The notes under the pieces are model-generated. The model did not search any database and was not told where the DNA came from. It was given only the letters and a program-made list of their open reading frames with translations. The position numbers were made by a program, and so were the translations under genes. Shown here in pieces: positions 1,175 to 36,964 of a stretch of 36,964 nt of DNA. Positions within the stretch are counted from its first letter, which is position 1; each line of letters begins with the position of its first letter. This stretch comes from a virus: positions 1 through 36,964 of the IMG/VR virus record IMGVR_UViG_3300042371_000288, one strand, 5' to 3'.

Positions 1175-3460
1175 ATGCAATACGATAATTTTATACAACA
1201 AAAAAGACAACATGAAATCACAATTGGCCATGCGCCAATTGCGTTAAACAACAACTTGTTTGATTTTCAAAAATATATTACCGAGTGGGCCGTCAAAAAG
1301 GGCCGCGCTGCTATTTTTGCCGATACCGGTTTAGGCAAAACAATCATGCAAACGTCATGGGCCGATGAGGTTGTGAGGCATACAGGGCAACGCGTGTTAA
1401 TTGTTGCGCCATTGTGCATATCGTTACAAACAGTCAATGAAGCCAATAAATTCGGGATTGACATTCAATACTGTCGAAACCAACAACAAATACAAAAAAA
1501 CATCATCATCACTAACTATGAAATGCTTGATAATTTTGACATTTCAACTTTTGGCGGAATAGTGCTTGATGAATCCAGTATTTTGAAAAGTTACATGGGG
1601 AAAACCAAGCGGGCATTGATTGAGTTGTGTCAGCCGGTGCCGTACCGATTAGCTTGCACTGCTACACCATCGCCTAACGATTATTTAGAACTTGGCAATC
1701 ATGCGGAATTTTTGGGGATCATGCCAAGCAATGAAATGATTATGCGGTTTTTTCAAAACGACACGATGGAAGCCGGAGCATATGTGTTGAAGCCACACGC
1801 GGCTACTAAGTTTTGGGAATGGCTGGCGTCATGGGCCATGTGCATTAGCAATCCGGCTGATTTAGGCTATGACGGAAGCGCCTACAATTTGCCGCCATTG
1901 AATCAGGAATTTATCAGAATTAACACGGATGACTTGCCGCCAGCCGACGGGGAATTGTTCAGGAACGTAACGATCAACGCGACGAGCGTACACAAAGAAG
2001 GACGTTTAACGGTTGATAAACGCGCCGTTAAGGTGGCTGAATTGGTCAACAATTCAGATGAGTCATGGATAGTGTGGTGCAATACAAATTATGAAGCCGA
2101 TGCGTTGAAGGGTTTGATTCCTGATGCCGTTGACGTGCGCGGATCGGATACGGTTGACAAAAAAGAACAATCATTGCAGTCATTTATTGACGGAAAAACA
2201 AGAGTATTGATTACTAAACCGTCAATCGCTGGCATGGGATTAAATTTCCAGCATTGCAGAAATATGGCTTTTGTTGGTTTATCGTATTCTTACGAAAACT
2301 ATTACCAAGCAATTCGTAGATGTTACAGATTTGGTCAAACTAAAGAAGTTCACAGCTACGTCATGGCCGCTGACTCTGAAAGTTCAATTCTTGCAATTAT
2401 CAAAGCAAAAGAACAAAAGCATAACGAAATGAAAGAAGCCATGGTTGAGGCCATTGCAAACTATCACAAGAGAGAAACTCAAATGAACGACGTTGCATAC
2501 TTTGAAACTGTTCAATCAGACAATTGGACTTTGCACCATGGCGATTGCGTTCATGTTGCTAAGATGATTGACAGCAATTCTATTGGGTTTAGCGTGTATT
2601 CGCCGCCGTTTTCTAATCTGTATATCTATTCAGATTCAGAATACGACATGGGAAACAGTACCGATGACGGTCAATTTATGGAGCATTACAGCTACCTTGC
2701 CGAAGAATTGCACAGAATAACAAAGCCAGGACGATTGACCGCTATACATTGCAAAGACTTGCCGATGTACAAGGGCCGCGATGGTGCCGCCGGTTTGCGC
2801 GACTTTCCTGGTGAAATTATAAAAATGTATGAATCAAAAGGTTGGCAATATCATAGCCGCGTGACCATTTGGAAAGATCCTGTTATAGAAATGCAACGCA
2901 CTAAAAACCACGGACTTTTGTACAAACAGTTGTGCAAAGATTCTAGCGCATCGCGGCAGGGCATGGCTGATTACATAATTGTGATGAGGAAATGGGCAGA
3001 CGAGGAAGATTGGGAAGCCGTTACTCGAGGCAAAGAACGGTTTTTTGATTACATTGGATCAAGTTATAACGCTCCACAAACAAAAGATTGGGGACGCGCT
3101 AGAAGTGAAACCGAAAAACAAAGATTGTATTCGATTGCTGTGTGGCAGCGTTACGCTTCGCCGGTGTGGTTTGACATAGATCAAACCAATGTGCTGAATT
3201 ACAAATTAGCAAAAGAAAAAAACGAAGAACGCCATATATGCCCATTGCAGTTGGACGTGATTGAGCGGTGTGTTGAGTTGTGGTCTAATCCTGGCGATTT
3301 AGTATTCTCGCCTTTCACCGGAATTGGTAGCGAGGGTTATGTTGCATTGAACATGGGACGTCAGTTTGTTGGCGCTGAATTGAAGAAATCCTATTTTGAC
3401 ATAGCGTGCAAAAATCTTGATTCAGTGAAGTTAAAAGAAAAACAAAAGGATTTATTCTAA
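1175..3460 (+). CDS. SF2 helicase fused to beta-class DNA methyltransferase
   Basis: 761 aa in two modules. Residues 1-430 are a Snf2/DEAD-like SF2 helicase: Walker A ADTGLGKT (49-56), motif II DESS (132-135), motif III TATP (162-165) and motif VI AIRRCYRFGQ (379-388). Residues 440-755 are a methyltransferase with SPPF catalytic motif IV (476-479) ahead of SAM-binding motif I FSPFTGIGSEG (711-721). This permuted order, with the recognition region between, is that of beta-class N4-cytosine or N6-adenine enzymes. Helicase-methyltransferase fusions are known in phages and are thought to modify phage DNA during replication, but the target base and site are unknown. DESS replaces the usual DEAH/DEAD. 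The gene looks AT-richer than its neighbours. The stop overlaps the next ATG by one base. Confidence 0.85.
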   Translation: MQYDNFIQQKRQHEITIGHAPIALNNNLFDFQKYITEWAVKKGRAAIFADTGLGKTIMQTSWADEVVRHTGQRVLIVAPLCISLQTVNEANKFGIDIQYCRNQQQIQKNIIITNYEMLDNFDISTFGGIVLDESSILKSYMGKTKRALIELCQPVPYRLACTATPSPNDYLELGNHAEFLGIMPSNEMIMRFFQNDTMEAGAYVLKPHAATKFWEWLASWAMCISNPADLGYDGSAYNLPPLNQEFIRINTDDLPPADGELFRNVTINATSVHKEGRLTVDKRAVKVAELVNNSDESWIVWCNTNYEADALKGLIPDAVDVRGSDTVDKKEQSLQSFIDGKTRVLITKPSIAGMGLNFQHCRNMAFVGLSYSYENYYQAIRRCYRFGQTKEVHSYVMAADSESSILAIIKAKEQKHNEMKEAMVEAIANYHKRETQMNDVAYFETVQSDNWTLHHGDCVHVAKMIDSNSIGFSVYSPPFSNLYIYSDSEYDMGNSTDDGQFMEHYSYLAEELHRITKPGRLTAIHCKDLPMYKGRDGAAGLRDFPGEIIKMYESKGWQYHSRVTIWKDPVIEMQRTKNHGLLYKQLCKDSSASRQGMADYIIVMRKWADEEDWEAVTRGKERFFDYIGSSYNAPQTKDWGRARSETEKQRLYSIAVWQRYASPVWFDIDQTNVLNYKLAKEKNEERHICPLQLDVIERCVELWSNPGDLVFSPFTGIGSEGYVALNMGRQFVGAELKKSYFDIACKNLDSVKLKEKQKDLF

Positions 3461-4476: not shown

Positions 4477-5066
4477 AGGTGTTAGTCGGCTGTGAGTCTT
4501 CAGGCAAAGTAAGGCAAGCGTTCAGGGATATTGGACACGACGCTTGGTCGTGTGACTTGTTGACGCCAGATGATGGTTCTGATTATCACATTCAGGGTGA
4601 TGTTATGACACTTCTTAATGATGGGTGGGATTTGGCTGTATTCCATCCGCCTTGTACGTATTTATCTGTGTCCGGCATGCACTGGACTACGCGAGGATTG
4701 CGCGACCCGCAGCTAACAGAAGATGCACTGATTTTTGTGCAAACCTTGTTAAATGCACCTATACCTAAGATTGCTTTAGAAAATCCTGTTTCTGTTATAT
4801 CAAGCCGTATTCGCAAACCTGATCAAATAATTCAGCCTTGGTGGTTTGGGGATGACGCAAGCAAAAAAACATGTTTATGGTTGAAAAATCTTCCACCGTT
4901 ACGGCCAACTAACATGCTGCATGGTGACAACAAAACACGGCGAGGTAATCAAACAGCCAGCGGGCAAAACAAATTAGCGCCGTCAAAAGATAGATGGAAA
5001 AAGCGTAGTGAAACGTATCAAGGCATAGCAAATGCAATGGCTGAACAATGGGGTGGCTTATGTTAA
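4473..5066 (+). CDS. C5-cytosine methyltransferase-like phage protein
   Basis: 197 aa. It opens with MKVLVGCESSGKVRQAF, which resembles the SAM-binding motif I region of C5 methyltransferases (ESSG in place of FxGxG). HPPC (58-61) is the motif IV Pro-Cys nucleophile and ENP (103-105) sits at the motif VI ENV position. At under 200 aa it lacks an obvious target-recognition domain, as is usual for this phage family commonly annotated as DNA cytosine methyltransferase. Activity is plausible because PPC is intact, but the altered motif I and short length make it uncertain. It overlaps the nuclease gene by 4 bases and the next helicase by 7, so it belongs to the same translational chain. Confidence 0.7.
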   Translation: MKVLVGCESSGKVRQAFRDIGHDAWSCDLLTPDDGSDYHIQGDVMTLLNDGWDLAVFHPPCTYLSVSGMHWTTRGLRDPQLTEDALIFVQTLLNAPIPKIALENPVSVISSRIRKPDQIIQPWWFGDDASKKTCLWLKNLPPLRPTNMLHGDNKTRRGNQTASGQNKLAPSKDRWKKRSETYQGIANAMAEQWGGLC

Positions 5067-6736
5067 GGGATTACCAACAACGATCCATAAACCAGCTTTA
5101 TGACTGGTTAAGCCGCAATTCAGGTAATCCCTGTCTTGTCTTACCGACAGGCGCGGGTAAGAGTCACGTTATAGCCGCTTTATGTAAAGATGCGTTGCAA
5201 TCGTGGCCTGAGACTAGAATTTTGATGCTGACGCACGTTAAGGAATTGATAGAACAGAACGCGCAAAAGATGCGTCAGCATTGGCCTAATGCGCCTATGG
5301 GAATATATTCCGCAGGCATGGGCCAGAAAATACTCGGAGAACCCATTACGTTTGCAGGGATTCAGTCAATCAGGAAACACGCGGATCAAGTCGGGCATGT
5401 CGATTTAGTGATTATAGATGAATGTCATCTTGTAAATCATAACGATGAGGGCGGCTATCGGACGTTGCTTGCCGCATTGTCGGCTATCAATCCCGCGTTG
5501 CGTGTGATCGGGTTGACTGCTACGCCGTTCAGATTGGGACACGGTTTGATAACGGACAAGCCTGCAATCTTTGATGACTTAATTGAACCGGTGACTATTG
5601 AGGAATTGATAACCAAGGGTCACTTGATGCCGTTGCGGTCAAAAGTGACTCAAACACAGTTAGACACGACAGGCGTGCATAAGCGCGGCGGTGAGTACAT
5701 AGAGCGCGAGTTACAAAAAGCCGTTGACGTTGACGTCATTAACCAGCGCGTAGTGAATGAAATCAAAGCATTAGCAGGTGATCGCAAAGCATGGCTTTTG
5801 TTTTGCGCCGGAGTGCAACACGCTGAACACATTGCCAGCGAACTCAAGGCGCAAGGCATAACCGCCGAGTGCGTCACAGGAGCCACTCCAAAAGCCGAGC
5901 GCGATCGGATCTTGTCAGAATTCAAGGCTGGCAAGATTCAAGCATTGACTAACGCGAATGTTCTGACTACTGGGTTTGATTATCCCGACATTGACCTGAT
6001 AGCGATGCTGCGTCCCACTATGTCGCCAGGGCTATATGTGCAAATGGCAGGCCGTGGTTTGCGTCCGAAGTCACACACGGATCACTGTTTAGTGCTGGAT
6101 TTTGCCGGTGTGGTTGAACAACATGGGCCTATAACCGCCGTAGAGCCGCCGAATAAATCAAAGCAGGGCGACGGGCAAGCGCCAACTAAAACGTGCGAGG
6201 AATGTAATGAGATTGTCGCCATCTCAACAAGTACATGCCCGTCATGCGACGCGGTTTTTCCCGTTAAAAAAAAGAAAGAACTTAGGTTAAGTGATGCCGA
6301 CATTATGGGGCTGGAAGCCACTGAGATGACTGTCATTGATTGGCATTGGCAGAAGTACATTAGTAAAGCCAGCGGTAAGCACATGCTCTCAGTGCGTTAC
6401 TACAGTGACCGGATGGACGTTCAACCAATAACCGAATTTTTCCCCGTGCTTCATGATGGCTATGCTGGCCATAAGTCACGCTTAGAAATAGTCACGATTG
6501 CACAACAGGCTGACGCGAGTTTAGATGATGACCTGATTCGCCAGGCTGGCAACTTGAACAAAGGCATTCCGCCCACAACGATCAAATACAAGCGTGACGG
6601 AAAATATAACAAGGTGGTGAATCGCTCATGGACTCAAAACAATGCACCAAGTGCAGGACAGTTAAGCCGGTTACAGACTTTTATACACAAAAACAGGGAA
6701 GATATTTACAGTCCTGGTGCAAACAATGCAAGTTGA
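5060..6736 (+). CDS. SF2 DNA helicase (type III restriction/SSL2-like) with C-terminal zinc ribbon
   Basis: 558 aa. Q-like RDYQQ at the start, Walker A LPTGAGKS (28-35), DECH motif II (120-123), TATP motif III (153-156) and QMAGRGLRP motif VI (328-336) give a complete SF2 helicase. CxxC pairs at 379/382 and 393/396 form a zinc ribbon; the rest resembles the usual tail of phage UvsW/SSL2-like helicases. A start at 5060 is preferred over 5048, because GGGTGG lies just upstream and homologues begin ML-R-x-YQ. Likely roles are branch migration or replication/recombination remodelling. The last 109 bases also encode the start of the next gene. Confidence 0.85.
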   Translation: MLRDYQQRSINQLYDWLSRNSGNPCLVLPTGAGKSHVIAALCKDALQSWPETRILMLTHVKELIEQNAQKMRQHWPNAPMGIYSAGMGQKILGEPITFAGIQSIRKHADQVGHVDLVIIDECHLVNHNDEGGYRTLLAALSAINPALRVIGLTATPFRLGHGLITDKPAIFDDLIEPVTIEELITKGHLMPLRSKVTQTQLDTTGVHKRGGEYIERELQKAVDVDVINQRVVNEIKALAGDRKAWLLFCAGVQHAEHIASELKAQGITAECVTGATPKAERDRILSEFKAGKIQALTNANVLTTGFDYPDIDLIAMLRPTMSPGLYVQMAGRGLRPKSHTDHCLVLDFAGVVEQHGPITAVEPPNKSKQGDGQAPTKTCEECNEIVAISTSTCPSCDAVFPVKKKKELRLSDADIMGLEATEMTVIDWHWQKYISKASGKHMLSVRYYSDRMDVQPITEFFPVLHDGYAGHKSRLEIVTIAQQADASLDDDLIRQAGNLNKGIPPTTIKYKRDGKYNKVVNRSWTQNNAPSAGQLSRLQTFIHKNREDIYSPGANNAS

Positions 6737-9810: not shown

Positions 9811-10064
9811 TGTTTATGCCAATCGGTTCCGGTTACGGTTCCGGCGACGGCTACAGTTCCGGCTCCAGCTCCGGCTCCGGCTCCGTCTACTGTTTAAGCG
9901 ACGGCTACGGCTCCGGCTACGGCTACGGTTACGGCTCTGGTTACCGCTTCGGCGACGGCTCCGGTTCCGGCTACAACTACGGCTCCGGCTACTGTTACGG
10001 GTCCGGCGACGGCGACGGCTTCGGCTACAACACTCCGCATCTGAATATCAAACGGCGAAGGTAA
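9810..10064 (+). CDS. Gly-Ser/Tyr/Asp dipeptide-repeat protein (84 aa)
   Basis: After MFMPI the protein is an unbroken alternation of Gly with Ser, Tyr or Asp (GSGYGSGDGYSSG..., GYGYGYGSGY), interrupted only by CLS, RF and N, and ends in a basic tail (NIKRRR). DNA of the repeat is built from GGC-TCC and GGC-TAC units. There is no signal peptide or other domain. Such sequences are intrinsically disordered or may form beta/amyloid-like or condensate-like assemblies; the basic end could contact nucleic acid. It is translationally coupled to the upstream conserved gene. Function unknown. Confidence 0.6.
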   Translation: MFMPIGSGYGSGDGYSSGSSSGSGSVYCLSDGYGSGYGYGYGSGYRFGDGSGSGYNYGSGYCYGSGDGDGFGYNTPHLNIKRRR

Positions 10065-26746: not shown

Positions 26747-27988
26747 TTAACCAGTGACGCGGGTAGCAAGTTCAGGATAGATCGTTGACCAGCCGTAAAG
26801 CACGTCAAGACGTGTCGGCAACTGGTCAGAATTGATGTCGTACTGACGTACCAGACGAATAGACAGGCCATCGGCGGAAGCCCTACCAGCCATGTCAACG
26901 CCCTGCGGAAGCAGAAGATCAGCGGTGCCGAGAGCAAAAGCATCCTTGTGGAACGCCAATGCGTTAGGAACCGATACAGCCGCGCCGGTAGATCCTGACA
27001 GGATGGTTGCAGTGCCAGAACCGATAGTGCCGGTGCTGGAAGTGACGTTCTGGAACTGGCCACTGAACACTGGAACAGGGAAGATGCTCAGTGAAGTGCT
27101 AGAGCCAGGTGCGTCAGCGGTAACAACGAAGTTACGCAATGCGCCGGTAGATTGGCGGTTCTGCGGGTTGACAGCGTAAACGCCAGGAATCGTGAATACG
27201 GTTCCTTTGGTCAGGGTGCCAGATGTAGAGGAAACCGCCAGCGTGAACGTTGACTGCGCGTTGTTCTGTACGCTTCCGCCAGCCTGCGCGGATACGGTGA
27301 ACGCGGTGGCAGTACCAGAAGTGAAGTTGCCGACGTTTTGATCCATTGCGAAGTTGAAACCTAGCGTAGAATCGCCCAACGCGCCCTTGTTGAAAATGCG
27401 CGAAATGGTGCCAGCCGGATTAAACAGGTTAGTCAAGCCGCTGACGATACCAACTTCGATAGTCGGATCAACGATGAAGCTACGATCCTCGTCAACCGGA
27501 GCGGCTTCCTGATTTAGTCTAGCGCGTGCGTCAAGAATGGCCTTAGTCGCCTGAGCCAACGTCGGGGTGCCGGTAAGCTGGCCGACAGTTCCGGTCAGAT
27601 TGTAAACGTTCTTGAACTGCTGCAAACCATCGTAGTCTATTTTGTTTGCAATAGCTGCAACGGCTGGCTTGATGAACCGGTCAGAAAAGTCTGAGATATT
27701 CAGAGACAAATCTTGAGTGGTGAAAGCCATATCCACACCGAACTGGGTATCCAGCGTCAGCGGAACATAGGTTTCAACTGCGGATTCAATCTGAAGCGCG
27801 GGGCCGGAGCGACCGACATAACGCGGTGGCTTCCTACAGTTTATAGTAGTGCCGATTTTCGCGCCTTCAATAGCGAATTTATTATCGTATTGGCGGTTGA
27901 CGGCTTTGGTGAAAACCAACTGGTTGGTGAGAACTCGCAGGGCCTCATTAGTAATCATGCTGATAGTCAGCAGATTGTTACTCGCCAT
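26747..27988 (-). CDS. P22-type major coat protein
   Basis: 413 aa, near P22 gp5 (430). It matches the family from the start (TISMITNEALRVLTNQLVFTKAVNRQYDN..GAKIGTTINCRKPPRY) and through DTQFGVDMAFTTQDL and FIVDPTIEVG. Residues about 235-345 form a Ser/Thr/Gly-rich insertion that corresponds to the I-domain position of P22 coat. The HK97-like core assembles the capsid. AGGAG lies eight bases upstream. The gene stands behind a terminator and a candidate promoter of its own. Confidence 0.92.
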   Translation of the reverse strand: MASNNLLTISMITNEALRVLTNQLVFTKAVNRQYDNKFAIEGAKIGTTINCRKPPRYVGRSGPALQIESAVETYVPLTLDTQFGVDMAFTTQDLSLNISDFSDRFIKPAVAAIANKIDYDGLQQFKNVYNLTGTVGQLTGTPTLAQATKAILDARARLNQEAAPVDEDRSFIVDPTIEVGIVSGLTNLFNPAGTISRIFNKGALGDSTLGFNFAMDQNVGNFTSGTATAFTVSAQAGGSVQNNAQSTFTLAVSSTSGTLTKGTVFTIPGVYAVNPQNRQSTGALRNFVVTADAPGSSTSLSIFPVPVFSGQFQNVTSSTGTIGSGTATILSGSTGAAVSVPNALAFHKDAFALGTADLLLPQGVDMAGRASADGLSIRLVRQYDINSDQLPTRLDVLYGWSTIYPELATRVTG

Positions 27989-28092
27989 GGTGTGACTCCT
28001 GTAATAGCGAAAAAAGATAAAGTGATTAGCCTTATGTTTTTTCCCGCCGGTAGGAGCCTATCCTTCGAATGACCAGGGTACTGCCTGACAAT

Positions 28093-28112
28093 CTATCTCG
28101 GCAAAAAGATAG
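28093..28112 (-). promoter_or_regulatory. Hairpin in the coat gene leader
   Basis: CTATCT / AGATAG forms a 6-bp stem with an eight-base loop in the untranslated leader between the candidate promoter and the coat start. It may protect the message or affect translation. Confidence 0.3.
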
Positions 28113-28126
28113 AAAGACGTGCCGTT

Positions 28127-28135
28127 TTTATATCA
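28127..28135 (-). promoter_or_regulatory. Candidate extended -10 promoter for the coat gene
   Basis: Minus strand TGA-TATAAA matches an extended -10 (TG-n-TATAAT, five of six). No good -35 is present because the upstream sequence is the terminator's U-tract. Transcription would start near 28120 and give a leader of about 130 bases. Confidence 0.4.
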
Positions 28136-28139
28136 CAAA

Positions 28140-28175
28140 ATCAAAATAAAAAAAAGCCCATCATTGCGACGGGCT
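28140..28175 (-). terminator. Strong intrinsic terminator after the scaffold gene
   Basis: AGCCCGTC-gcaat-GATGGGCT is an 8-bp stem (one G-U) with a five-base loop, followed by a run of eight T on the minus strand. It separates terminase/portal/scaffold from coat. Confidence 0.9.
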
Positions 28176-28198
28176 AAGAGGGGTGGGAACGTAAACTT

Positions 28199-29074
28199 TT
28201 AACGTTTCATCATCGCCTGGCGACGTGCTAAATCTTCAGCATTACGCGCTGCAATATATTCCTCGGTACTCATTTCAGAATAGGATTTCTCGTTACGCGG
28301 TGGTTTACCTGTTGCACTAATCGGGCGTATGGGTTGCGGCGCTCTGCTAGCTTGTTTTGCCGGTGTGCCGATAATCTCGGCTAACTTCATGCCAGCTTGA
28401 ATGGGATTCATGCTTGCAATTTGGTAAGCAACATCCAAATTGCGCCCCAGTGTGTAAGCAATCTCAGGGCCGTTATCCAGACCCAACAATGCTTGGCGAA
28501 TCGTTGGGTTATTGGCTAGTCTAGGATCAGATGTAATTTGCTCAATCACCGCGTCATAATCCGCGTGTTTTGCTCTTGTGGCGGCTTCCGCTTCAACCAA
28601 TCGAGCCTGAGCCTGTGCCGCTGCTTGCGCCTGTTCGCGTTGCTGATATTCCGCCGCAACTGCCTGTCTTGCTTCCTGAATCGCTGACTCGCGTGTGTAC
28701 TGCATCATTGCGTCAATATAACGCGGATCGTACTGGCCGCCAGCAAATTGCGACGGGTCAGGCGGCATAATGCCTTGAGGCTCTGGAGCCGTCTGCGGCA
28801 TATACTGACGCATCATGGATTCTTGCTGTTCCAGTATCTTTTCAAGTCGTTCAGCCTGTCGTCTGGCCTCGTGCTTGTCTCGGGTCAGTTCATCAATGCG
28901 CCGCTTGTACCACGGATCCTTTTTTGAATCGTCAGCGTCTGCTAATTCCTCGTTAGCCTGATCCTGCTCAAGTGATTCCGATTCAATCTCGGACGGATCA
29001 CTGGCTGCATCTTCTACGGTTTCTGTAGTCAGATTATCGTCTACTGTCTCAAAGACTGCATTTTCCTCTGTCAT
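28199..29074 (-). CDS. Scaffolding protein
   Basis: 291 aa, between portal and coat as in P22. The first 55 residues are very acidic, then a long Gln/Glu/Arg/Ala-rich region (about 55-170: RRQAERLEKILEQQESM, AAEYQQREQAQAAAQAQARLVEAEAATR) predicts coiled coil, and the C-terminus is basic (RRQAMMKR). This charge layout is usual for scaffolds that bind coat protein by their C-terminal helix. It would guide capsid assembly and then leave. Confidence 0.82.
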   Translation of the reverse strand: MTEENAVFETVDDNLTTETVEDAASDPSEIESESLEQDQANEELADADDSKKDPWYKRRIDELTRDKHEARRQAERLEKILEQQESMMRQYMPQTAPEPQGIMPPDPSQFAGGQYDPRYIDAMMQYTRESAIQEARQAVAAEYQQREQAQAAAQAQARLVEAEAATRAKHADYDAVIEQITSDPRLANNPTIRQALLGLDNGPEIAYTLGRNLDVAYQIASMNPIQAGMKLAEIIGTPAKQASRAPQPIRPISATGKPPRNEKSYSEMSTEEYIAARNAEDLARRQAMMKR

Positions 29075-29098
29075 AACGTTATCCCCTGTTGTGTTGAA

Positions 29099-31264
29099 TT
29101 ATTCAGACTCGCCAGGCTTTGCTTCGCCGGTAAGTGCTTCTGTATCTGCTTCGCGTGTCATGCTGCCAGCGCCTCTAGCAGGTGACGGTGCGCCGCCTTG
29201 TGGTTGTGGCTTTTGTACGGGTTGCTCTAGTTGCGCTTCCAGCCGCTCAAATTCAGGTTGTTGCTCAAGTGATTGTTGAGTGCCGATACCCATCATAAGC
29301 ATGATGTTGTCCCTTACAGCCGCTTGTAACTGGCTGTCCGTCATCATGATCTTGCCTTCAACTTCCATTCGTTTTGTTTCAGAGTCAAACCACTCGCGTT
29401 CCTTTTCTTGAAGCAAGATTGCACGCTGATCGCGTAGCTGTTGCATCTCTGCGCTCATTTGCTCCATCTGATCGGCCATCTGTTCGATCATCTGTTGAGC
29501 CTGCATAACTTGCGGATCTACCTTGTCACCGCCAGCTATTTGCTGGAGTTGTGGAGGCAATAGCATCTGAAGCCTTTTGCTAATTTCCTCTGCACCAGGC
29601 CAATCCATGTTTTTCATCATCAAATCGCCAATAGACTGGAACAACGCGGGATTGGCTTGGGTTAACGCCAGCATCATATTTGCTGCTTCATCGCGTTTAG
29701 TGGCATAGCTTGGGCCTGAATCGCACACCACGTCATATTGACCAATAGTTGGGTTATAGATTGAATCAATCGCTGGGTTATCAGTACCAACAGAAGCTTG
29801 CGGTAGATTAGGATCAAGGTTAACAGTGCGCGGTGTACCATCTTCGCCAAGTATGCGAGCAACGCGAGGCCGATCGTATACTTTTGGGATCATGTCAACG
29901 ATGATGCGCCCACAATGCCGGATTGAACGGTTAAGATTATCCTGATAGTGGAAGTTACCTGTTTCGGATTGCTTTTGTCTAAGCAGTAATGCACGTCCTG
30001 AGGTCTCATTCGATTGAGCGCCAAGTGACGGCTGATAGATACCCATGCTTTGCATAATGTCATTTTCAGCCAATCGGATTGCATCCATAATTGCGCTGCT
30101 TGCTTGCGGCGGCATGGCGCGTTGAGGTGCGCCGACGGGAGTTCCTGCGATGCTGACCGGATCATATTCTAAATATGCAACCGACTCTTTGTTTGCTCGG
30201 CCCCAATTCGGGTCAGTCTCAAACTGACCAGCAACGCCGATAAACGGTGCTTTAGGTGCGAGTGCTACGTTTTCCGCGTTGGCGCTCAAGTAATAGTTGT
30301 ACAGGCGCTGTGCGTCCTTGGCGTTTCTAATCAAACCGGATAAATAGCGTTTACCCTGAACCCATATCTCGTGACCAATAACGGGAATTACAGGAATGTA
30401 TTTAGTCGGTAGTTCGGTACGCTCAAGCACTTTGTCGCCAGTAACTTTGCACCACATGCAACGCTTAGGCTGTATCGTGCGAGAGCGCCCTGTTTCTTCG
30501 TCATAAATTTCCTGAGTCTCGTCGTACTCAAGATAATAATACTCTGCAATGCGTACAGAATCCTTGGTATACCAACCTTGCATGTCCCCATTTCCAGCGG
30601 CCTCAAATGAGGTTTCATCAACATCGGGATACATGCGCATGAATTCATCCTTGCTGATTTCCTCGGCTATGATGCACCATTCAGCATCTGAGCCGTCAGG
30701 CTGTTTGCTGTGTGGGTCAAAGTAAACCTTCATCGGGTCAGGGATGCGGTCTATAAATATATCCTGATCGAATGAAGTATCGTCCACATAATCATTCCGC
30801 ACTCTGAAATAACCTAAACCAGCGTCAACCTGCCACTCGACGGCGGTGTCGTACGCAATACTGGCATTAGAATTGTCTTGTATATGGTGAACCAGTCCCA
30901 TCAAAACCTCGGCGGTTTCTTGGTCTGCACCATCGTTGACCGGCCTGATTCTAATGCTTGGCGTGTTTTGCCGGATTTCGTTGACAACTCTATCCCTAAA
31001 CTGCAATAGCCGATTGACGACCAGCATGGGGCGCTCTTTTCCAGGGCGGTTCCTGTCGTACTTGGCCGCTTCGCTCCACTGATCGCCCAACCTTGCGAAG
31101 CGGATATCGTCAAGCATTTCCTGTCTGACCGTCGCGCTGAATTCAACCGCGTCGCTAAACCGCTGGCGTATTTCCCTGAGAGTTTCTTGGTCAGTGTCGT
31201 CCACGTCGGTATCAGCGCCGAGTCCGAGTGAGTTGTAAATGCTATCGGTATCTAAGTTTGCCAT
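29099..31264 (-). CDS. P22-type portal protein
   Basis: 721 aa, matching P22 gp1 size (725). The core shows FARLGDQWSEAAKYDR, RPMLVVNRLLQFRDRVVNEIRQN, later PFIGVAGQF and SNETSGRALLLRQKQSETGNF, all portal-family marks. The C-terminal 150 residues are helical and Gln/Glu-rich (QMIEQMADQMEQMSAEMQQLRDQ), the counterpart of the long P22 barrel, with a Pro/Gly-rich end. It forms the ring at the packaging vertex and binds gp4. It begins 14 bases after TerL. Confidence 0.93.
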   Translation of the reverse strand: MANLDTDSIYNSLGLGADTDVDDTDQETLREIRQRFSDAVEFSATVRQEMLDDIRFARLGDQWSEAAKYDRNRPGKERPMLVVNRLLQFRDRVVNEIRQNTPSIRIRPVNDGADQETAEVLMGLVHHIQDNSNASIAYDTAVEWQVDAGLGYFRVRNDYVDDTSFDQDIFIDRIPDPMKVYFDPHSKQPDGSDAEWCIIAEEISKDEFMRMYPDVDETSFEAAGNGDMQGWYTKDSVRIAEYYYLEYDETQEIYDEETGRSRTIQPKRCMWCKVTGDKVLERTELPTKYIPVIPVIGHEIWVQGKRYLSGLIRNAKDAQRLYNYYLSANAENVALAPKAPFIGVAGQFETDPNWGRANKESVAYLEYDPVSIAGTPVGAPQRAMPPQASSAIMDAIRLAENDIMQSMGIYQPSLGAQSNETSGRALLLRQKQSETGNFHYQDNLNRSIRHCGRIIVDMIPKVYDRPRVARILGEDGTPRTVNLDPNLPQASVGTDNPAIDSIYNPTIGQYDVVCDSGPSYATKRDEAANMMLALTQANPALFQSIGDLMMKNMDWPGAEEISKRLQMLLPPQLQQIAGGDKVDPQVMQAQQMIEQMADQMEQMSAEMQQLRDQRAILLQEKEREWFDSETKRMEVEGKIMMTDSQLQAAVRDNIMLMMGIGTQQSLEQQPEFERLEAQLEQPVQKPQPQGGAPSPARGAGSMTREADTEALTGEAKPGESE

Positions 31265-31277
31265 TGGGATTCCTGTG

Positions 31278-32543
31278 TTAACTCATCCAGTCGCCGGTTC
31301 TATAATCGTCAGCGCGTCGTCTTTTGACTATATTATCATTCTTTAACATATCCACACACGTCGCAAGGTATCTAAACGCATCAGCGCCGTGTGAATACTC
31401 ATCATGCAAGGGGCCGGTGGGCTGGCCTGTCGTTGAATTGATTGCTCGCCTATAACGTTTTAAGCACTCTTGTAGAAGTGTGGTTTTTTCTTTGTCCATC
31501 CAAAGCCTGGGAAACAACATACGCGCCAGCCGTATGCCGTGTTCGACTTCGCCAATGGGGATAATCTCGCAGTTCCAGCCAAGCGCCGTCATTATGTCTA
31601 GTGCGCTTTTGCCTGTTTTGTAGTCTTTAGTTACGCCGTCATGAGGAAGCCAGATTTTGCCCCAGTTGTACGGGCGTTTTTTGAGTTCGTTTGAGTACCA
31701 ATCCAGCGTGTGGAATGACTCTTGAATGTAATCAATAATGCGAATTTCTGAGCCTGCGCGTTGCGCCACGATGATAGTCATCGCGTCGTTCCAGCCCAAA
31801 TCGAAGATACAATGCGCCTTAAGCATTGGATCATGAGTCACCAGGTTGATGCGATGTTGGTCAACCATTTCTTGGAATTCGTCAGCGTAAATTGCGCCTT
31901 CAGCCACTATCAGCGGCTTGCCTTCCCATATGTTTTCATATTCTTTCGGTCTGTATTTCTTGCAGTGTAGCCTTTCTTTTTCTAAGACTTCTGGAAACCA
32001 TTTGTTATCGTCATAATTCACTTGCACCACAACGCAATCATCCGGCGGCTGCACAACAAAACGTTGATACACCTCATCCGTTTCAAGGTTTGGATTTAAT
32101 GAAAGCCATATTTCTGATCCTGGTTTCCTGATAGTTGGAATTAAAATATCAAGTGATTTTTTGCTGATATTTTGTGATTCCTCTAACCATACACGATCAA
32201 CGCCTTCGTAACTTTTGACGCTTTCTACCGTGTGAGTCGCTAAACCAGAAAAATAAAATTCCGATCCGTTTTTGCCGCGGATTGCTATGTCTGTAACGTC
32301 AAACAAATAACCAAAACCCAACTCTTGTATTTGGTCTACCAAAAGTTGATGAACTGATTGTTTAATAGATTTTTGTACTTCTCTACAGCAAAGAATTCTA
32401 AGTTTTTTTTCTACTGATTGAATCAACAGGGCGCGAGCAAAAGCCCAGGATTTCCCTGAGCCTCTGCCGCCATGAAAGACTTTGTAGCGATGCGGCTCAA
32501 ACAATGGCCGCATCTTCGGTGGAAAGTGTGCGATTGTTTCCAT
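31278..32543 (-). CDS. terL: Terminase large subunit
   Basis: 421 aa. Walker A GGRGSGKS (25-32) and VWLEES (118-123) form the packaging ATPase. The C-terminal nuclease shows FDLGWNDA (D248), LPHDG (300-304) and, near the end, HDEYSHGADAFRY. It is of the PBSX/Terminase_3 kind. It cuts and drives DNA into the capsid through the portal. The ATG shares one base with the HNH stop (TGATG), and there is no good ribosome-binding site of its own, so translation may be coupled to the endonuclease gene. Confidence 0.93.
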   Translation of the reverse strand: METIAHFPPKMRPLFEPHRYKVFHGGRGSGKSWAFARALLIQSVEKKLRILCCREVQKSIKQSVHQLLVDQIQELGFGYLFDVTDIAIRGKNGSEFYFSGLATHTVESVKSYEGVDRVWLEESQNISKKSLDILIPTIRKPGSEIWLSLNPNLETDEVYQRFVVQPPDDCVVVQVNYDDNKWFPEVLEKERLHCKKYRPKEYENIWEGKPLIVAEGAIYADEFQEMVDQHRINLVTHDPMLKAHCIFDLGWNDAMTIIVAQRAGSEIRIIDYIQESFHTLDWYSNELKKRPYNWGKIWLPHDGVTKDYKTGKSALDIMTALGWNCEIIPIGEVEHGIRLARMLFPRLWMDKEKTTLLQECLKRYRRAINSTTGQPTGPLHDEYSHGADAFRYLATCVDMLKNDNIVKRRRADDYRTGDWMS

Positions 32544-34371: not shown

Positions 34372-34569
34372 TCACCCCACCATGTCATGCTTGTCGTCGC
34401 CGCTCAATTTAGGTAAACCACACCAATGAGTAAAACCGCCTTCTTCATAATACTGGCCTATAACTGCGGTTCCGTATTTCATTCTTAATAATATCTTGGT
34501 TCCTGTTGGTGGCGGTGTTTTTGAAATCAGTTTCCACGTCGGTTGATATTCTGACTTATACCTTTGCAT
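34372..34569 (-). CDS. DUF551-like small protein (65 aa)
   Basis: WKLISKTPPPTGTKILLRM, then VIGQYYEEGGFTHWCGLPKL match the short beta-rich DUF551 pattern (W-x-x-x-x-x-x-P-P ... G-x-Y ... W-x-x-LP). Function is unknown; common in phage early regions. It overlaps RusA by 14 bases. Confidence 0.65.
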   Translation of the reverse strand: MQRYKSEYQPTWKLISKTPPPTGTKILLRMKYGTAVIGQYYEEGGFTHWCGLPKLSGDDKHDMVG

Positions 34570-34936
34570 CTTTAATCCTTGTTACTTCAACTATCAATCC
34601 GCCGTTCTGTGTTGGTGCGCCATAACTAGCGTGTATTTCCTTAACCTGATTATCGTTTTCGATAATCACACCTTGAAGCGCATCTAATGCCACTTTAAGG
34701 CAATTATCAAGATCAAGGATTATTTTGCTGGCGTCGCCTTTAACCGTGAGTTTCGGAAGTAGTTTTATATTGACACAAATAGAATCCTTGTGCAATACAA
34801 GCCCGTCTGTGTGAGCCACGGTCTTGACGTGCTTCTTGTACGCTGTCGCCGTTGCACTAGGCACCATACGATTGCGAAAACAACGCCAATAGCGGTTCGC
34901 GGATGGTGGATAGTCTAGTCTCAGTGTGATGCTCAT
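34556..34936 (-). CDS. rusA: RusA-like Holliday junction resolvase
   Basis: 126 aa. PPSANRYWR near the start and DLDNCLKVALDAL (75-87), then NDNQV (94-98) give the aspartates and Lys (D75, D77, K81, D95) that line the RusA active site. It cuts four-way junctions before packaging and fits the recombination genes on the other strand. It has a weak ribosome-binding site and follows the repeat-rich region at 34986-35098. Confidence 0.92.
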   Translation of the reverse strand: MSITLRLDYPPSANRYWRCFRNRMVPSATATAYKKHVKTVAHTDGLVLHKDSICVNIKLLPKLTVKGDASKIILDLDNCLKVALDALQGVIIENDNQVKEIHASYGAPTQNGGLIVEVTRIKDAKV

Positions 34937-34959
34937 TTTTTGCTCAATTTTCGTACTCT

Positions 34960-35098
34960 CAACACGCCGATCACCGACAGGTGACCCAGTACCCTACCCC
35001 TAAAGGGGGGTAGGGGTACTTTGGGTACCTCGTAAGTCGTTGATTTGATCCTTTTTGGTACCCAGGTACCCAGGGTACCTAAAGGGTACTTTGGGTAC
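34960..35098. repeat. GGTACC-type repeat region with large inverted repeats
   Basis: This non-coding stretch holds eight GGGTAC/GTACCC copies (34990, 35014, 35023, 35057, 35065, 35074, 35084, 35093), four of them full GGTACC palindromes. The last five are spaced 8-10 bases. CCCTACCCC (34992-35000) / GGGGTAGGG (35007-35015) forms a 9-bp hairpin, and GATCACC / GGTGACC a 7-bp one at 34969-34986. It may be an operator array, a replication origin or a protein-binding iteron site. Confidence 0.65.
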
Positions 35099-35103
35099 TT
35101 GTA

Positions 35104-36964
35104 TCAGACTGCCAAGAGCCACGCTGATGCCTCAATTTCATCTGTCACGATGAACCCATTTTCGTATGCTTCAATAACGCCATCCGCCAGCATTGAGGCT
35201 ATCATTTTGCCCTCGTTATTCGCGTTCATGGCGTTTTTAATAGTCTGTTCTGCCTTGCCATCCTGGCGCATTAGATCGCGCAAAGCCGAGCGCGTGACGT
35301 AAGGTAAATCCATTCTTATTTCCGTCCCACTGGCCCACCATGCGCGTTCCATTACTTTCAGGTTTTTAGTATGTTTTGCGCTTTTCTTGGTGCTGTTTAC
35401 CGGCGCATCATCCTCAACCATGACCACGCTAGTTACCGGTTCATTATCCTCGTCAAACCATCCGTTAATAATCACCTTTTCAAGTCGCATGTGCTTGTCG
35501 GGTGCAAGTTCTGAGTCCTTGGCTTTACGCTGTATAATCTGTATTGGTGTTGACTCTGTAGCCGGTACAACGCTTATAGCTATTTCCAAAGCACCGCGAT
35601 AAGCCGATGAACCGCGACCATCCTTTTGTGAATTTTCATCTTTTCCGGTATGGTGTACTAATAATACTGATGTATTAAATTCACGCATCAACAAACCACA
35701 CGCATCAATCATGGTTTTAGCGATTTCCGACGAATTTTCGTCGCCTTTCAGGAACCTGTGTAAGGTATCAATTACTATTAAACGTGGAGTTTCAGGTAGT
35801 TTTCTAACAGACTCTAATACCTTGTGATACCCTTCCGCTGTATTTAAATCGCACCCATGCCGACTAACGTACATATTCATCTGACTGACTTGGTTATATT
35901 GTTTCCATGCGGCGATACGGCTACGCAAGCCATGATGACCTTCACCCGCTAAGTAAACAACTGTCCCTGGTGTGACTTTGTGGCCTTTCCATTCACCCAA
36001 ACCAGACGCAATGGTGTTGGCTATATCCATCACAAAAAACGTCTTACCGCCGCCGCTAGGGCCGTGAACCATTATGAAAGCCTGATCCTGAACCCAGTCC
36101 TTAACCAACCATTTGATAGGGGCGGGTTGACTGCTAAATTCATCAGCGTGAATGAGCCACTCATCATCATCGGATGGTGGATTCAGTAAACCAGCCAAAT
36201 CATGACCAGCTTGCGCGTAATCGTTTGCATCACCGATTATTGATGGGATCACTAACCGCGCACCTATTTCTGTAGCGGCCTGCTCTGCGTATTTCTGGCC
36301 TGTTCCTGATTCATCGTTGTCGCCGACAATCACAATGTTCTGCGCTATGCCGTACCGTTCGCGCATGAATCGAGCGACGTGAATAACATTGGATGCGCTG
36401 TAAGCGATTGCACACGCTTGACCTGTACACTCGTAGATCGTCGCCGCCGTAGCGTAACCCTCAGCTATATATAAAGAATGACCAATTTCACCGATGATCC
36501 AGAACTTACCGCCTGTTGCTCCACCGGTGTGAAATAACTTGCGCCCAGTGTCGTTGATGTACTGCAGCGAAGATAACGATCCGTCATCGCTGTACAGCGG
36601 TGTCATCAACCTCCCTGCGCTGTCTACTCTTGCGCCGTGTGGCTGAATTCCCTTGGTTTGAAGGTAGGGATGATCGGGTGACGCACCAAGGCCGTTTGAC
36701 CAGATAGTCTCGACAGTTTCCGCCACTGTTTCCTGTTGCTTCTTGCGTTCCTCGTCCCTTATTCGCTTGGCTTCTGCCATGCGTCTGGTTTGCGCCATTT
36801 GTTCAGCAACGGTGAGTTGTCTGCCGACATTGGCTACCCAAGATTGCTCATGCCCTGCACGCCAGCAACCAAACCGGCCTGCCGGTACACCATCATGAAA
36901 AGCTATGTACCAACCTGATTTATCGCCCTGTCCTGGCGTTCCTTTTGTGCCGCTCTTGAACCGA
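35104..36964 (-). CDS. Toprim primase / RecA-like (AAA_25) helicase fusion, N-terminus outside window
   Basis: The minus-strand frame is open to the window end, so the start is missing; the ATG at 36798 is internal, since the upstream residues (GWYIAFHDGVPAGRFG) continue the phage primase pattern. A toprim domain follows (YIAEGYATAATIY, then IVIVGDNDESG), then a hexameric RepA/DnaB-like ATPase with Walker A GPSGGGKT, IDTLHRFL as Walker B and LVHHTGKDENSQKDGRG. The last 90 residues are a winged-helix-like end. It would prime and unwind DNA for phage replication. It stops just before the GGTACC repeats. Confidence 0.88.
   Translation of the reverse strand, partial: RFKSGTKGTPGQGDKSGWYIAFHDGVPAGRFGCWRAGHEQSWVANVGRQLTVAEQMAQTRRMAEAKRIRDEERKKQQETVAETVETIWSNGLGASPDHPYLQTKGIQPHGARVDSAGRLMTPLYSDDGSLSSLQYINDTGRKLFHTGGATGGKFWIIGEIGHSLYIAEGYATAATIYECTGQACAIAYSASNVIHVARFMRERYGIAQNIVIVGDNDESGTGQKYAEQAATEIGARLVIPSIIGDANDYAQAGHDLAGLLNPPSDDDEWLIHADEFSSQPAPIKWLVKDWVQDQAFIMVHGPSGGGKTFFVMDIANTIASGLGEWKGHKVTPGTVVYLAGEGHHGLRSRIAAWKQYNQVSQMNMYVSRHGCDLNTAEGYHKVLESVRKLPETPRLIVIDTLHRFLKGDENSSEIAKTMIDACGLLMREFNTSVLLVHHTGKDENSQKDGRGSSAYRGALEIAISVVPATESTPIQIIQRKAKDSELAPDKHMRLEKVIINGWFDEDNEPVTSVVMVEDDAPVNSTKKSAKHTKNLKVMERAWWASGTEIRMDLPYVTRSALRDLMRQDGKAEQTIKNAMNANNEGKMIASMLADGVIEAYENGFIVTDEIEASAWLLAV

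Follow-up and report, generated by a model that had tools for sequence, protein, structure and literature searches.

In RSF1010, the iteron binder RepC, the helicase, and the primase are three separate proteins, and the iterons are about 20 bp long. In the systems of P4 alpha, pRN1 ORF904, and phage BIP-1, the repeats or stem-loops bound by the initiator lie at its own gene or close to it (PMC4234260), and the ori of the PICI pri-rep systems is located directly 3' of the gene (PMC6092414). The locus that we compared with these systems is found in a viral DNA of 36,964 nt (IMG/VR record IMGVR_UViG_3300042371_000288, positions 1 to 36,964; this whole stretch is referred to as the window), and it comprises the following features:

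34556 to 34936, minus strand: rusA, which codes for a Holliday junction resolvase and lies downstream of the array (Pfam RusA, 1.5e-13)
34980 to 35098, minus strand: the whole iteron/hairpin array, a putative replication origin, with eight GGGTAC/GTACCC and four GGTACC copies, present in relatives; the sense strand is that of the primase
34980 to 35029, minus strand: hairpin 2 (H2), from inverted repeats, with an apical stem that is compensated in L012 and L016
35030 to 35057, minus strand: the inter-hairpin spacer, with a conserved GGGGCAAA box at the same place in many relatives
35058 to 35098, minus strand: hairpin 1 (H1), from the sequence and inverted repeats, with the same plan in L007, L012, and L016
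35104 to 36798, minus strand: the primase-helicase gene (putative initiator), with a Toprim_3 primase, an RSF1010-RepA-like AAA_25 helicase, and a C-terminal winged helix
35107 to 35379, minus strand: the C-terminal winged-helix domain (residues 474-564), the inferred reader of the array, from an AlphaFold2 model and covariation with the repeated word
35206 to 35250, minus strand: the recognition helix and the following loop (residues 517-531; specificity residues 522, 528, and 529), from the separation of word classes and the L171/L163 switch

With P4 alpha and its ori, the locus shares the combination of a Toprim (EGYATA-type) primase, a helicase, and a C-terminal winged helix, which is a predicted fold here, in one polypeptide, as well as short iterons at the origin, which is putative here. 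However, the helicase belongs to SF3 in P4 but is of the RSF1010-RepA-like AAA_25 type here, the iterons of 5-7 nt are built into tandem bulged hairpins, a single array is present in the window instead of the separate ori and crr clusters of P4, and the repeated word diverges rapidly. The pRN1 (ORF904) and BIP-1 systems are similar in that the origin lies 3' of the gene of an initiator with a C-terminal winged helix, and in that the structure, but not the sequence, of a large stem-loop is conserved (PMC4234260). The pRN1 origin works after being moved (PMC4234260), and displaced arrays exist here too. In contrast, these initiators combine an archaeo-eukaryotic primase with an SF3 helicase instead of Toprim_3 with AAA_25, and an iteron structure was not recognized in their stem-loop (PMC4234260). 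The PICI/SaPI pri-rep-ori systems likewise have an iteron origin directly 3' of the primase-initiator gene and occur as allelic variants, but their iteron sets flank an AT-rich region and do not form tandem hairpins (PMC6092414). The likeness to the oriV of RSF1010 (RepA, RepC, RepB', ssiA/ssiB) consists in the RepA-family helicase and in the presence of iterons and hairpins in one origin, whereas here a single polypeptide is combined with words of 5-7 nt inside hairpins; long iterons with a separate RepC were not met, and the covariation points to the C-terminus of the primase itself. The best reading of these analogies is that the array system would work like P4 alpha/ori, with a different combination of domains and with an origin activity that is inferred.

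The primase-helicase and its C-terminal domain

Pfam identified a Toprim_3 domain (3e-09), with an EGYATA motif in the alignment, and an AAA_25 domain (4.8e-36) in the primase-helicase, and the helicase domain, residues 219-404, matches RSF1010 RepA (1g8y, E = 1e-6). For the C-terminus, no named family was found in sequence searches of Pfam, NCBIfam, and the PDB with the domain or the protein. The AlphaFold2 model of this winged-helix domain has a mean pLDDT of 83, rising to about 95 where the chain is folded, and places residue 522 within the recognition helix and residues 528 and 529 just after it. Structure searches with the domain retrieved nothing more specific than generic winged helices, with 6.9 as the best Z. 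The winged-helix domain of P4 was not among the structural matches listed, which excludes nothing. Elsewhere in the window, positions 1175-3460 encode a protein of 761 aa that matches DNA helicase (phrog_16) and, from residue 414, DNA methyltransferase (phrog_67), possibly a helicase-methyltransferase fusion, and a second phrog_16 helicase is encoded at 5048-6736.

Architecture of the array

The gap that bears the array extends from 34937 to 35103, between the primase stop and the ATG of rusA. The initial annotation had claimed eight GGGTAC/GTACCC copies and four GGTACC palindromes between the primase-helicase gene and rusA, together with large hairpins. Listing of the positions confirmed the copies, with the eight starting at 34989, 35014, 35023, 35058, 35066, 35073, 35084, and 35093 (110 bp) and the four palindromes at 35024, 35057, 35065, and 35074 (56 bp), and inverted-repeat analysis bore out the hairpins. 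The spacing of the last five copies had been called helical-turn-like, a poor description because the measured distances are 8, 7, 11, and 9 bp; in many relatives, tandem iteron copies have a period of 5 nt. Eight copies fall within 115 bp, whereas 2,000 mononucleotide shuffles of the surrounding 3 kb never gave more than three. GGGTAC/GTACCC is the most densely clustering 6-mer of the window, equaled by no other, and a second GGGTAC cluster was not found anywhere in the window record, that is, the array is present at one place only. The second densest 6-mer cluster, at 9868-10030, consists of ACGGCT, CGGAGC, and CGGCTC repeats with as many as 7 copies per 115 bp.

The most plausible reading of the copies in the two orientations is that they make up the arms of two bulged hairpins, rather than a linear array. 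In H1, the outer helix is formed by 35093-35098 paired with 35058-35063, followed by a 3-nt 5' bulge (AAA) and an inner helix of 35084-35089 paired with 35066-35071, with a further GGTACCC in the loop; on the primase strand, the order is GTACCC-AAA-GTACCC, loop, GGGTACCTGGGTAC. H2 consists of GGTACCC, a 3-nt bulge, GTACCC, the apical stem, the loop, and the inverted iterons, again with a bulge, and reads GGTACCC-AAA-GTACCC-CTACCCC, loop CCTTTA, GGGGTAG-GGTAC-T-GGGTCACC on the primase strand. Its apical stem is a perfect 9-bp helix (35007-35015 with 34992-35000) closed by the loop 35001-35006. The stem is replaced in a compensated manner in close relatives, from CTACCCC/GGGGTAG in the window to CTAGCCTCT/AGAGGCTAG in L012 and CTGCCTA/TAGGCAG in L016. 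A perfect apical stem of at least 8 bp is present in 38 of 69 representatives, compared with 1.7% of shuffles, and TTTA and TATA loops recur on such stems; 43 distinct apical stems of at least 7 bp were counted among the representatives. Between the hairpins, GGGCAAA is present in 35 of the 69 representatives, versus 1.3 in shuffles.

Turnover of the repeated word and its match with the recognition helix

Scans of IMG/VR with a primase profile retrieved at least 529-595 confirmed relatives per scan, and 129 distinct primase-plus-downstream pairs among the matches listed were used as the set of relatives. The word class of each was set by whichever hexamer of a candidate list occurred most often in it, and the classes of L105, L172, and L331 were corrected manually. 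A dense, inverted, two-hairpin array is present 3' of the primase gene in nearly all 129 relatives, mostly with 5-18 copies of a lineage-specific word (GTACCC, GGAAC, GTAAC, GGACCG, GTACCG, TGACCC, GCCCCC, and others). The close IMG/VR relatives, with 91-100% primase identity, have kept both hairpins; in one of them, L016, the word has changed to AACCCC/GGGGTT in both hairpins, and GTACCC and AACCCC are mixed. At 52-54% identity, the same layout was found in the Alteromonas phages XX1924 and PB15 with the word GGTTCA, in the Idiomarinaceae phage 1N2-2 with GGTACA, and in the Salicola phage CGphi29 with GGGACA. In L228, L234, and L185, the array is displaced by 0.3-1.7 kb downstream with its architecture kept, and the fetched DNA of L107, L181, and L202 yielded no array. 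At least 38 changes of the word are required on a tree built from primase residues 1-465, which was obtained by a quick search. Thus, the search for the array in relatives, which had been proposed as a check, revealed that its position and architecture beside the primase gene are conserved, though the motif turns over. A lack of conservation in relatives had been named as a refutation, and it is ruled out by the kept place and two-hairpin plan; decayed coding sequence from the primase end, the other refutation named, was excluded as well.

Two close relatives, L012 and L016, stem from the same IMG/VR sample (3300035190) and differ in their words (GTACCC and AACCCC, respectively), as would be the case if several origin specificities were present side by side in one metagenome. 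The window encodes P22-like portal and coat proteins and a Terminase_3 large subunit at 26747-32543, whereas 1N2-2 has a tape-measure/tail-tube set; therefore, the replication module is common to phages with different virions. By pattern alone, inverted GGGTAC arrays were also found at L102:3107-3311, L038:1409-1619, L030:9237-9349, and L089:5583-5800. These lie inside the 3' coding ends of unrelated primases (Toprim_2/3, DUF7146-Toprim_3, Prim-Pol), in L089 with an adjoining VapE-like helicase gene, and may be origins embedded in the initiator genes of other phages.

The word class is matched by a few residues of the C-terminal domain. Columns 522 and 529 separate the 24 GGAAC phages from the 15 GTAAC phages without exception, with V, T, or K at residue 522 in the former versus Q in the latter, whereas the best column of the core reaches a balanced accuracy of 0.846 and the last 25 residues, which are encoded nearest to the array, reach at most 0.73. 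All seven phylogenetically independent pairs on well-supported branches agree (p = 0.016). Similarly, columns 528 and 529 perfectly separate GGACCG (5) from GTACCG (6) phages, with Y versus S at residue 528, and Q522 is again paired with GTAC words outside those classes, in L172, L189, L312, and L323. Between L171 and L163, the C-terminus differs only at residues 522, 528, and 529, and the word changes from GGAAC to GTAAC. L173 and L227 have cores that are 99.4% identical and flanking genes that are mostly 97-99.6% identical, and both the C-terminal domain and the array differ. Since the word shifts with few C-terminal residues of the primase, we infer, without binding data, that the C-terminal domain is the reader of the array.

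The C-terminus and the array are usually adjacent, so that co-transfer by recombination contributes to the association. However, co-transfer does not explain why it is the recognition helix, rather than the part encoded closest to the array, that bears the perfect columns. In addition, the displaced arrays of L228 and L234 have the word GTAAC, as predicted from their Q522, and hence physical linkage alone does not explain the match of word and helix. The code of residues 522, 528, and 529 is clear for two word pairs and does not account for the TGACCC, GCCCCC, and AACCCC classes. The distant relatives L199, L197, L196, L287, and L300, with the words TAACCC, GATGCA, CGAACA, TACCAA, and GTACCA, do not fit this simple code either.

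A small ORF just upstream of the primase gene, annotated as a transcriptional regulator in named relatives, was considered as a reader and rejected: the second base of the repeats changes from G in L260 (GGACC) to T in L269 (GTACC), and the 59-aa ORF is 100% identical in the two.

Proposed origin function and its alternatives

The location and the architecture of the array, its conservation in relatives, and the matching of its word to the recognition helix are results of the computational analysis. We conclude that the array is very probably the replication origin of the phage, bound by the C-terminal winged helix of the adjoining primase-helicase, with both the physical binding and the origin activity inferred in the absence of binding or replication data. 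The initial annotation had offered an iteron origin, a regulator-binding array, and a protein-loading site as possible roles; the first is strongly favored because the array is kept beside the primase-helicase gene, its word covaries with the C-terminal domain, and DnaA boxes are present in many relatives. With the pattern TTAT[CA]CACA, these boxes have a density of 2.78/kb beside arrays versus 0.086/kb elsewhere (32-fold), and 53 of 129 regions have them within 350 nt of the primase stop; near the array, they are absent in the window's own clade. An inspection of the GC skew, suggested earlier as a check, did place a minimum near the array, but this is confounded with gene strand.

In the mechanism that we propose, the winged-helix domain would bind the short iterons (GGTACCC/GGGTAC in the window) in the two tandem bulged hairpins, and several bound copies would nucleate the RepA-like hexameric helicase. 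The inverted repeats may then melt or extrude, whereby the Toprim primase would be placed on the exposed strand and the primer template presented near the conserved flanking boxes; a role of the hairpins in loading and priming is likewise only inferred. Host DnaA, whose boxes flank the array in many relatives, probably assists in some hosts.

The covariation demonstrates a matched pair, not its purpose, and the array is part of the early operon, where it separates primase from rusA. It could hence be an operator with which the C-terminal domain of the primase autoregulates the replication operon, or mark a loading site, with replication starting elsewhere. We consider this unlikely, given that the array is located 3' of the primase gene and not at its promoter, that DnaA boxes are enriched beside it in relatives, that displaced copies lie 0.3-1.7 kb downstream, and that P4 and pRN1 have helicase-primase fusions with a C-terminal winged helix as their initiators (PMC4234260). 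Both strands fold equally strongly, with a mean z of −4.59 for sense and −4.66 for antisense and the sense strand ahead in 32 of 69, and this suits a DNA element better than a structured RNA in the transcript of primase and rusA, be it an attenuator, a terminator, or a riboregulator. The strong compensated hairpins with their GC-rich stems and conserved TTTA/TATA loops would suit such an RNA, and the G.T versus A.C mismatches (17 vs. 8) lean to it mildly. Nevertheless, a terminator scan was negative, Rfam gave no match, and an RNA hairpin would require neither that both hairpins use the same word nor that this word covary with a DNA-binding helix of the primase, making this explanation highly improbable. 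That the array is a selfish palindromic element (REP/MITE-like), or a product of chance or decayed coding repeats, is scarcely credible: it occurs at one place in the window record, accompanies a single gene family in phages that differ greatly, covaries in its word with the primase gene, and has a density far above that of shuffles, although short inverted repeats in an intergenic gap and the GGGTAC arrays in unrelated contigs would be compatible with this view. TIGR arrays, considered since a TIGR paper names CGphi29, have 8-12-nt repeats, 9-nt spacers, and Nop proteins, unlike the array described here, and were rejected.

If the array is the origin, the results mark the likely replication origin of a large, mostly uncultured phage family and provide a simple finder for it, namely, a primase-RepA fusion with a downstream hairpin array. 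The at least 38 changes on the tree, the natural three-residue switches, and the swaps of whole cassettes of C-terminus plus array led us to consider diversifying selection on origin specificity, under which the recognition helix and the word would switch together repeatedly and bar co-infecting relatives or satellites from each other's initiator. This is a serious possibility, although we would not quite call it probable; if it is true, the family would yield a readable residue-to-base code for origin recognition. The natural series of matched initiator-origin pairs, some of which are distinguished by three residues and by a single base in each repeat, makes both the protein-DNA recognition code and the cause of the rapid turnover of the origin directly testable.
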